Assembly: GCF_002238045.1 (NCBI RefSeq)
Contig: NZ_NBYO01000001.1
Coordinates: forward strand, 620,001-684,000
Direction: 5' to 3'
Origin: Notoacmeibacter marinus
Lineage (GTDB): Bacteria > Pseudomonadota > Alphaproteobacteria > Rhizobiales > Rhizobiaceae
Length of the DNA: 64,000 bases
Position numbers and translations under genes: made by a program
Notes under the pieces: model-generated
Database searches by the model: none
Told to the model about the DNA's origin: nothing
What the model saw: the letters and a program-made list of their open reading frames with translations, nothing else
Shown: piece by piece, positions 8,701 to 11,146 of the stretch
Numbering within the stretch: the stretch's first letter is position 1
Layout of the letters: each line of letters starts with the position of its first letter

Positions 8701-10221
8701 TTAAAGGCACGCCGCCTGGGCAAGCGCCTTCTTTTCACGCCGGCGCTGGACGGAGGACGCAATATTCATCGCCTCGCGATATTTTGCGACGGTGCGGCGG
8801 GCGATCTCGATGCCTTCCTGTTGCAGACGTCCGACAATCTGATCGTCGGAAAAAACCGCATCCACCGCCTCGGATTCCACCAGTTGGCGAATGCGATGAC
8901 GCACCGCTTCGGCCGAATGGCTCTGGCCGCCTTCCACCGCAGCGAGAGCCGCGGTGAAGAAATATCGCATTTCGAACGTGCCGCGCGGCGTCAGTAGATA
9001 TTTGTTGCTGGTGACACGGCTGACCGTCGATTCATGCATTCCGATCGCATCGGCCACGGTTTTCAGATTGAGCGGGCGAAGCTCCGAGACGCCATGCACC
9101 AGAAAGGCGTCCTGACGGCGGATGATCTCGCTTGCGACCTTCAGGATCGTCTTGGCGCGCTGATCCAGGCTGCGAGTCAGCCATTGCGCATTGGCCAGGC
9201 ACTCCGAAACGAACGCCTTCTCCTTATTGTCCGACGAAGCGGCGCTGACGCGGGCGACATAGGCCTGGTCGACAAGCACGCGCGGTAGCGCCTCACCGTT
9301 CAACTCAACCTGCCAGGAGCCGTCGGCTGCCGGCGTCACCACAACGTCCGGAACGATCGCATCGGTAAAAGCCCGGTTGAGTTGGACGCCGGGCCGGGGG
9401 TCGAGCCGTCGAATTTCGGAAAGCATGTCGATCAGATCGTCTTCGCCCACGCCACAGATCGTACGAAGCGCGATAAAATCACGACGCGCCAGAAGGTCCA
9501 GATTATCGATCAACGCCGCCATGGCCGGATCGAGCCTGTCTTTTACCGAAAGCTGGGCCGACAGGCATTCGGCGAGTGTGCGGGCGAAAATGCCGGTCGG
9601 TTCGAAACGCTGGCAAACGGCCAGAACGGCTTGGACATCTTCCCGTTCGGCGCCGAGCCGCAACGCCACCTCGTCCAGATCGGCACGAAGATAACCGCAT
9701 TCATCCAGCAGATCGGCCAGTTCGCTGGCAATCAGCCTGTCGCCCGCCGTTCGGAACGAAAGAGCGATCTGCTCGGCAATACGATCGTCCAGCCCGACAG
9801 GCGCGGCGGCAAAAGCATCCAGGTCGTTGAGATCGGCTCCCGATAACGGCACGCCGCTGCCGGCGCTTTTCCACTGACCTGTCAGATCGGGCGATAGAGC
9901 CGGCGCGCGGCCTGGATCGTCGGGGAAGACATTATGAAGAGAGGTGTCCATGGCAGATGCCATAGCCGCGCTATCGGCCTCCACCAGAAGAGCGAGCGGG
10001 CTGTCGACAATCTCGTCCGGCAGCACATCCGGCTCGCTAGCCAGCCTGGCGCCGGTGTCGCTCTCGCCCCTCTCGATCAGCGGATTGCGTTCGACTTCCT
10101 CATCGATGAACCGGTCCAACTCCGCCTGGCCGAACTGCAACAGACGGATCGACTGCATCAATTGCGGCGTCATCACCAGAGACTGGCTCTGTCGCAACTG
10201 TAGACGCGCGGAAAGACTCAT
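8701..10221 (-). CDS. rpoN: RNA polymerase sigma-54 factor
   Basis: A 506-residue sigma factor that recognises -24/-12 promoters and needs an activator ATPase such as NtrC. The glutamine/leucine-rich activator-interacting region is at the N-terminus (ARLQLRQSQSLVMTPQLMQSI). Core-binding and helix-turn-helix regions follow, and the RpoN box ARRTVAKYREAM is at about residues 474-485. ATG 10221 is chosen because the protein begins there with the standard family N-terminus; the frame extends upstream only as non-homologous sequence. A sigma-54-type motif lies 81 bases upstream on the opposite strand, suggesting autoregulation. The lptB-rpoN-hpf-ptsN order is the conserved proteobacterial one. Confidence 0.97.
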   Translation of the reverse strand: MSLSARLQLRQSQSLVMTPQLMQSIRLLQFGQAELDRFIDEEVERNPLIERGESDTGARLASEPDVLPDEIVDSPLALLVEADSAAMASAMDTSLHNVFPDDPGRAPALSPDLTGQWKSAGSGVPLSGADLNDLDAFAAAPVGLDDRIAEQIALSFRTAGDRLIASELADLLDECGYLRADLDEVALRLGAEREDVQAVLAVCQRFEPTGIFARTLAECLSAQLSVKDRLDPAMAALIDNLDLLARRDFIALRTICGVGEDDLIDMLSEIRRLDPRPGVQLNRAFTDAIVPDVVVTPAADGSWQVELNGEALPRVLVDQAYVARVSAASSDNKEKAFVSECLANAQWLTRSLDQRAKTILKVASEIIRRQDAFLVHGVSELRPLNLKTVADAIGMHESTVSRVTSNKYLLTPRGTFEMRYFFTAALAAVEGGQSHSAEAVRHRIRQLVESEAVDAVFSDDQIVGRLQQEGIEIARRTVAKYREAMNIASSVQRRREKKALAQAACL

Positions 10222-10301
10222 GAACGCTACCCCTTGATACCGCCGAAATGGCAGTCCGGCCCTCGCTCTTCTGCCGTAGCGGGTGGCGTGCCAAATTGAA
10301 C

Positions 10302-10317
10302 TGGCATGAGGCTTGCT
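10302..10317 (+). promoter_or_regulatory. Sigma-54 -24/-12 motif in the rpoN upstream region
   Basis: TGGCATGAGGCTTGCT matches the consensus TGGCACR-N4-TTGCW at all but one fixed position, with the invariant GG (10303-10304) and GC (10315-10316) exactly ten bases apart. It sits on the plus strand between rpoN and lptB and so points away from rpoN and into the lptB 3' end. Confidence 0.55.
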
Positions 10318-10345
10318 TGTCAAGCGTCGTGGGTGAACAATACCA

Positions 10346-11146
10346 TCAAAGGGTAAAATTCTCGCCGAGATAGAGACGCCGCACTTCGGGATTGTCGACG
10401 ATCTGCTGCGGCGTGCCGTGTGTGAGGACGCGGCCTTCATGGATGATGTAGGCCCGATCGATCAGGCCGAGCATCTCGCGAACGCTGTGATCGGTGATGA
10501 GCACGCCGATACCTCGCGCCTTGAGATGACGCACGAGTTCCTGAATATCGGCGACGGCAATCGGATCGACGCCCGCGAAGGGCTCATCAAGCAGCATGAA
10601 ACGCGGACGGCTGGCCAGCGCCCGGGCAATTTCCAGTCGGCGGCGTTCGCCGCCCGACAATGCCGTTGCCTGGCTCTTGCGCAGATGCGCGATGCCGAAC
10701 TCCGACAAGAGTTCATCGAGCCTTTCCTGCCGAGCCGAGCGATCCCTTTCGACCAGCTCGAGCACGCCCATAATATTGTCTTCGACCGTGAGGCCGCGAA
10801 AGATCGAGGCTTCCTGCGGCAGATAACCGATGCCGAGCCGGGCCCGCCGATACATTGGAAGGGTGGTGATGTCGTAGCCGTCGAGCTCGACCGAACCTTC
10901 GTCGACCGGCACCAGGCCTGTCACCATGTAGAATGTCGTGGTCTTGCCCGCGCCGTTGGGTCCGAGAAGACCGACAACCTCGCCGGTTCGCAGGCCGAAG
11001 GATGCACCCGAGACGACCTCGCGGCCGCCATAACGCTTATGCACCGCCCTTGCGATCAGCGTATCGGCAAGCCGCTTCTGATCGTCTTCGGACGGAACGT
11101 AAAATGTCTCGGTCGCATCGGTGCGGGGCAATTTTGGAATACGCAT
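10346..11146 (-). CDS. lptB: LPS export ABC transporter ATP-binding protein
   Basis: A 266-residue ATPase that powers LPS extraction from the inner membrane with LptF, LptG and LptC. Walker A GPNGAGKTT is at residues 62-70, the Q-loop lies in YLPQEAS, the signature is LSGGERRRLEIARAL and Walker B is RFMLLDEPFAGVDP with the H-loop in LITDH. The N-terminus is about 25 residues longer than in E. coli LptB. That extension is polar, and the start at 11146 may be slightly too far upstream. It follows lptA closely in an lptC-lptA-lptB operon and precedes rpoN. All ATPase motifs are intact. Confidence 0.95.
   Translation of the reverse strand: MRIPKLPRTDATETFYVPSEDDQKRLADTLIARAVHKRYGGREVVSGASFGLRTGEVVGLLGPNGAGKTTTFYMVTGLVPVDEGSVELDGYDITTLPMYRRARLGIGYLPQEASIFRGLTVEDNIMGVLELVERDRSARQERLDELLSEFGIAHLRKSQATALSGGERRRLEIARALASRPRFMLLDEPFAGVDPIAVADIQELVRHLKARGIGVLITDHSVREMLGLIDRAYIIHEGRVLTHGTPQQIVDNPEVRRLYLGENFTL

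Follow-up and report, generated by a model that had tools for sequence, protein, structure and literature searches.

In the bacteria considered here, sigma-54 governs how nitrogen is used and fixed, along with many other functions. Its promoters consist of TGGCAC-N5-TTGC-like boxes, with a GG and a GC that lie ten bases apart. 

RNA polymerase carrying sigma-54 binds DNA in a form that is unable to start transcription alone, and at some E. coli sites its binding may have no effect (PMC4591121). Among the closest described systems is the repression by E. coli sigma-54 (classes I and II) of sigma-70 promoters that it overlaps: at the four tested in vitro (argT, chaC, mdfA and patA), the sigma-54 holoenzyme cut transcription by sigma-70 by 10-60%, and all of the repression-linked motifs carry a C at -12 (PMC4551910). 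For rpoN, the gene of sigma-54, negative autoregulation is on record in R. leguminosarum VF39SM (Clark et al., 2001, cited in PMC3538637), which concerns the same gene in the same family as the locus described below. More broadly, rpoN has been inferred to be autoregulated from sigma-54 promoters in several classes (PMC12316311).

Here we describe a predicted sigma-54 site in front of rpoN in Notoacmeibacter marinus, within a stretch of 64,000 nucleotides (contig NZ_NBYO01000001.1, positions 620,001 to 684,000) that we call the window. Like the E. coli cases, it is of the -24/-12 type, retains the C at -12 and sits inside a likely sigma-70 polymerase footprint; unlike them, where the promoters belong to other genes, the target here would be the sigma-54 gene, and the arrangement is conserved across a family. 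It also resembles the cases in PMC12316311, alpha-proteobacteria included, in placing rpoN in its own regulon, but there rpoN is transcribed from sigma-54 promoters, whereas the site in the window points away from rpoN. Full-text literature searches returned no description of an antisense site of this kind that we recognised, and one may already exist in print.

The lptB-rpoN gap and its predicted sigma-54 site

The rpoN gene is the single copy found in the genome (one PF04552 match genome-wide), which also holds seven PF00158 (activator) matches, four of them strong. The RpoN translation contains ARRTVAKYRE, which we take to be the RpoN box. With the start codon of rpoN at 10221-10219 (minus strand) and the stop codon of lptB at 10346-10348, the interval 10222-10345, to which the preliminary description had assigned its motif, is the entire 124-nt gap between the two genes and not the motif alone. 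The features of the region are the following:

8701..10221, minus strand: rpoN (sigma-54, 506 amino acids); NF004596 at 716.1 bits, TIGR02395 at 389.8 bits
10346..11146, minus strand: lptB, the gene upstream of rpoN on the same strand; TIGR04406 at 372.7 bits
10302..10317, plus strand: predicted sigma-54 (-24/-12) site TGGCATGAGGCTTGCT, pointing away from rpoN; from sequence match and family conservation
10318..10323, minus strand: TTGACA, predicted -35 box of an rpoN sigma-70 promoter, adjoining the -12 end of the sigma-54 site; from the family register
10295..10300, minus strand: TTCAAT, predicted rpoN -10 box, separated by 17 nt from the -35 box and weak by E. coli rules
10328, plus strand: predicted transcription start if the sigma-54 site fires, 12 nt past the C at -12; from site geometry
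10278..10293, minus strand: partial sigma-54-like match TGGCACGCCACCCGCT toward rpoN, scoring 10/12; probably chance

The preliminary description had placed a motif on the strand opposite to rpoN with GG and GC ten bases apart, and the letters bear this out: the GG stands at 10303-10304 and the GC at 10315-10316 (plus strand), which keeps the C at -12. The 16-mer TGGCATGAGGCTTGCT occurs once in the window and agrees with TGGCACGNNNNTTGCW at 11 of the 12 specified positions. A transcript from the predicted start would be antisense to the end of lptB.

We weighed the partial match at 10278-10293 as another possible promoter of rpoN but set it aside, its score falling below 9/12 in two congeners (L083, L084); the block around it is partly conserved within the genus. 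Separately, a promoter scan listed a sigma-70-like match on the plus strand (TTGTCA, 18 nt, TACCAT; 10317-10346) that overlaps the end of the site, where 0.1 such matches were expected in the region.

Counts within this one genome are of little help. In the window, the consensus with at most two mismatches gave 5 matches against 11.3 expected, hence no enrichment, and genome-wide the relaxed consensus TGGCNYGNNNNTTGCW gave 7 against 10 for the reversed control, hence no excess. Such single-genome counts leave the site within chance and are useless alone, and we therefore compared the rpoN upstream regions of relatives.

Conservation and TTGAC register in the Rhizobiaceae

GG-N10-GC sites were sought within 350 nt upstream of rpoN and scored out of 12, in regions drawn from the best 80 of 585 named relatives and from family, order and class relatives. 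The window's family (GTDB Rhizobiaceae) contributed 118 rpoN upstream regions, the window included and at least two genomes entering twice (L058/L096, L059/L097). The preliminary description had looked to relatives for a conserved GG-N10-GC on the opposite strand, and this expectation held: at a score of at least 10/12 the antisense site is present in 107 of the 118 regions, against none for the reversed consensus and 1.4 in dinucleotide shuffles, counts that overstate independent evidence owing to kinship among the loci. A sense site at the same threshold occurs in a single region, as the window's own partial match. Lowering the threshold to 9/12 raises the antisense count to 111 of 118 (shuffles, 9.65), with the reversed control at 4 on the antisense strand and 11 on the other.

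The site was likewise found in most of a set of 35 rpoN-bearing family genomes, made up of one per genus plus two congeners (29/35 at a score of at least 9, 28/35 at 10 or more). Among the named loci (the best 80 of 585), which include Mesorhizobium, Aminobacter, Rhizobium (e.g., L074, L079), Sinorhizobium, Agrobacterium, Shinella, Phyllobacterium and others, all 80 have it at 9/12 or better and 77 at 10/12 or better. Base frequencies were taken over the 101 distinct sequences of the 111 family loci with a site, which were picked by score and had GG and GC imposed by the scan, so that C at -12 in the relatives is not independent evidence. The TT preceding GC is present in 100% and the first T in 99%, C fills the three positions following GG in 93, 87 and 87% respectively, and in 95% an A occupies position -2, three bases ahead of the site's first T. 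Conservation lifts the predicted site above chance.

Seven of the 118 family loci have no site at 9/12 or better (L165, L167, L170, L171, L173, L174 and L175), the last being a second rpoN copy of genome G031. Two of them, L170 and L174 (G022 and G029), keep a TTGACA element upstream of rpoN and lack a sigma-54 site of at least 9/12; the site is therefore dispensable. In two family genomes without an rpoN match, no site of at least 9/12 was found in the 420 nt after lptB, one of the two having three matches at 8/12 there. In L325 (G007), an rpoN-less family genome, lptB and a gap are followed by a reading frame resembling ptsN, as if rpoN had been excised from the cluster.

A TTGAC element accompanies the site in one of two fixed registers in 108 of the 111 family loci, and in neither in the other 3. 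TTGACA directly abuts the site in 62 loci (e.g., Mesorhizobium, Aminobacter, Phyllobacterium, Brucella/Ochrobactrum and the window's genus), and TTGAC begins 20-21 nt before the site in 46 (e.g., Rhizobium, Agrobacterium and Sinorhizobium). In the abutting register the predicted site is the spacer of a sigma-70-like promoter: in the window it occupies 16 of the 17 nt of the spacer (10301-10317) between TTGACA and TTCAAT. At position 18 after the site start a T stands in 60 of the 62 loci of this register, at position 19 in all 62 and at position 20 in 50. In the 20-21 nt register the site would cover the -10 region, the -10 box being a guess there. On comparison of the family's sequences, we thus demonstrate a predicted site, its orientation, its conservation and the fixed TTGAC register.

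A sigma-70 scanner failed to list TTGACA-N17-TTCAAT because its -10 box has no A at position 2; we retain the predicted rpoN promoter because it is conserved, not because of the scan. In S. meliloti, -10 boxes are described as poorly conserved and an rpoN start is reported (PMC3616915). The rpoN1 gene of M. loti R7A, supplied with no more than 118 bp of upstream DNA, rescues growth of an rpoN1 mutant (PMC3538637), suggesting that a promoter lies within this 118-bp stretch in a relative; transcription from the vector could also account for the rescue. In other families of the order we had the impression, uncounted, that a TAA-rich stretch, possibly a -10 box, often precedes the site.

Probable promoter occlusion and the competing readings

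We consider it probable that sigma-54 holoenzyme represses rpoN by occluding its sigma-70 promoter. Sigma-54 RNA polymerase would bind a site that spans the predicted housekeeping (sigma-70) promoter of rpoN, facing a direction that could not yield rpoN mRNA even if the complex were activated. When sigma-54 is plentiful, holoenzyme would be parked there as a closed complex, silent without an activator, and would exclude sigma-70 polymerase from the -35 and -10 boxes, causing rpoN transcription to drop. More sigma-54 would mean a stronger block, that is, negative feedback by promoter occlusion. Assigning the TTGAC element to the rpoN promoter is our inference, as are the binding of sigma-54 to the site and a resulting drop in rpoN expression. 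The conserved arrangement in front of rpoN suggests that sigma-54 turns down its own gene, and on this evidence the site would exemplify, in conserved form, a type of repression already described, here acting on sigma-54's own gene.

The site stands out from its surroundings. Twenty-seven Mesorhizobium regions, aligned irrespective of the site, match L004 with an identity of 0.99 over the site and 1.00 over TTGACA; the value is lower in the flanking 40 nt on the lptB side (0.77), in the 40 nt on the rpoN side (0.62) and in the first 30 coding nucleotides of rpoN (0.88). Among three congeners, 14 of the 16 site columns and all 6 of TTGACA are invariant, against 52 of 102 in the rest of the gap. 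In site-anchored alignments of the family, mean information in the site is 1.52 bits per column for the loci with abutting TTGACA (the TTGACA group) and 1.82 for the other group. Over the 20 nt that follow the predicted start of the antisense transcript it is 0.32 and 1.04 (the latter stretch contains the TTGAC box), over the following 20 nt 0.34 and 0.39, and further on 0.19 and 0.12. On the rpoN side, columns beside the site hold 0.33-0.35 bits and those beyond 0.10-0.26; in the TTGACA group the values are 0.33 in the nearest 20 nt and 0.10 further away, and here conservation is slightly higher toward lptB than toward rpoN.

A C-terminal pattern of lptB located the end of that gene in 107 of the 111 family loci, and the site lies downstream of it in all 107. 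Measured over 107 loci, the distance from site to rpoN has a median of 89 nt (quartiles 80-95), and that from site to lptB is more variable (median 104, quartiles 66-134).

The preliminary description had left two options, a block of the rpoN promoter or a transcript antisense to the end of lptB. The former is well supported by the sequence comparison, through the TTGAC register in 108 of 111 loci and conservation above the surroundings; the latter is not clearly supported, with weak conservation on the lptB side, a variable distance to lptB and no clear signal from the single activator motif scanned. Under this second option, an activator, for example NtrC, would fire the site as a functioning sigma-54 promoter, and the transcript, leading away from rpoN and antisense to lptB, would interfere with rpoN or lptB or make an RNA. 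Its -24/-12 elements are intact, and the family keeps the outward orientation (107 antisense against 1 sense among the 118 regions at 10/12 or better), which blocking does not need, as simple occlusion by itself does not demand one orientation. The lptB-side lean of the TTGACA group over the 40 nt past the start (0.32-0.34 bits, against 0.33 falling to 0.10 toward rpoN), shared by Mesorhizobium (0.77 against 0.62), also fits a working promoter, and occlusion would not predict it unless the region helps the promoter. This conservation is weak, however, and fades to 0.12-0.19 bits past +40, and the spacing to lptB is variable. In 27 of 107 loci the best NtrC-like palindrome on the rpoN side has three mismatches, and in none has it fewer; this is at most slightly above the 19 of 107 found at three or fewer mismatches in mononucleotide shuffles. 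A tiling-array study of R. etli describes its candidate non-coding RNAs as lacking significant upstream RpoN sites (PMC2881028). Weighing these points, we regard a working antisense promoter as unlikely.

Still less probable, and in our estimate very unlikely, is that a different regulator binds the block, whose likeness to -24/-12 would then be coincidental. Conservation does extend a few bases beyond the sigma-54 consensus, as in the A at -2 (95%), but these extra bases adjoin the sigma-70-like boxes on both sides, the conserved letters are asymmetric and fit the sigma-54 elements, and the two rpoN-less family genomes have no site of at least 9/12 after lptB. As for a chance match without meaning, the genome-wide counts (7 against 10 in the reversed control) are just what it would produce, yet family-wide conservation, orientation and register argue otherwise, and the comparison makes it extremely improbable.

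Site orientation beyond the family

Outside the family, the scan of the order covered 111 of 116 matched genomes, the N-terminal part being missing or fragmentary in the other 5. Among 112 loci from the rest of the order, sites of at least 10/12 are antisense in 26 and sense in 12, with shuffles at about 1.5 each and the reversed control at 0 and 1. At 9/12 or better the antisense count is 43 of 112 (shuffles, 7.6; control, 6), and sense matches, at 14 of 112 against 8.0 in shuffles and 15 in the control, show no excess of weak sites; the argument for sense sites therefore draws on the stronger matches and on their agreement within families.

The scan of the class covered 53 of 87 matched genomes and that of the other classes 26 of 42. 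In the 53 loci from the rest of the class, 2 antisense sites and 1 sense site reach 10/12, with shuffles at 0.75 and 0.95. In 26 loci from other classes of the phylum, whose starts are rough, antisense sites number 4 at 9/12 or better and none at 10/12 or better, and sense sites 7 and 2. Nothing in these 53 and 26 loci suggests that the antisense element is general outside the order. Two strong sense sites lie further afield: L278 (G221), outside the order, has a 12/12 sense site 73 nt before its rpoN match, and L354 (G303), outside the class, an 11/12 sense site upstream of rpoN.

Orientation is consistent within several families. Of 49 families of the order, 17 have an antisense and 6 a sense site at 9/12 or better within 150 nt of rpoN, and none has both; at 10/12 or better the numbers are 14 and 6. 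The antisense site is present in three of three genomes in ten families (f11, f13, f16, f27, f34, f41, f42, f43, f44 and f45). Sense sites of at least 9/12 occur in 3/3 genomes of f20, f22 and f33 and in 2/2 of f50, of which 3, 3, 1 and 2 reach 10/12. These eleven sense loci (L110, L127, L130, L184, L203 and L205, with L125, L206, L215, L225 and L233) all place the site 46-99 nt before rpoN. In two of the three f22 genomes (L184, L203), the sense 16-mer is identical to the antisense 16-mer of the window. Isolated matches in f6, f8, f23 and f51 may be chance.

We then placed these states on an RpoN tree, counting antisense sites of at least 9/12 or sense sites of at least 10/12 within 20-330 nt. 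The tree is quick (106 rows, of which four are long, with 42 of 103 branches open) and supports broad placement only. A clade of 74 rows holds 58 antisense loci, 8 sense loci and 8 without a site; outside it there are 1 antisense, 2 sense and 29 without a site. The minimum number of antisense/sense changes is four. Families f20, f22 and f50 fall inside the 74-row, generally antisense clade and f33 outside it. As far as this quick tree goes, the pattern suggests one main origin of the site followed by a few reversals. One locus labelled as the window's family, L106 (G036), has an RpoN that groups with other families on the same tree, which may reflect transfer, misplacement or tree error.

A reversal of the site may have flipped the sign of sigma-54 self-control in evolution, from repression in one orientation to self-activation of rpoN in the other, an idea that we offer tentatively and ourselves hold to be doubtful. 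The lptB-side conservation and the control for weak sense matches led us to weigh both occlusion and this flipped loop slightly lower and the antisense transcript slightly higher. If the idea is true, families with sense sites make rpoN its own activated target, and changes of orientation by family would provide natural negative and possibly positive loops built from the same site. Within the Rhizobiaceae, L170 and L174 would serve as natural controls for the feedback, and the gap would offer a simple system for testing a closed polymerase complex as a repressor. If it lets sigma-54 limit itself, this compact conserved element would also supply the means by which rpoN is negatively autoregulated, as cited for R. 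leguminosarum.
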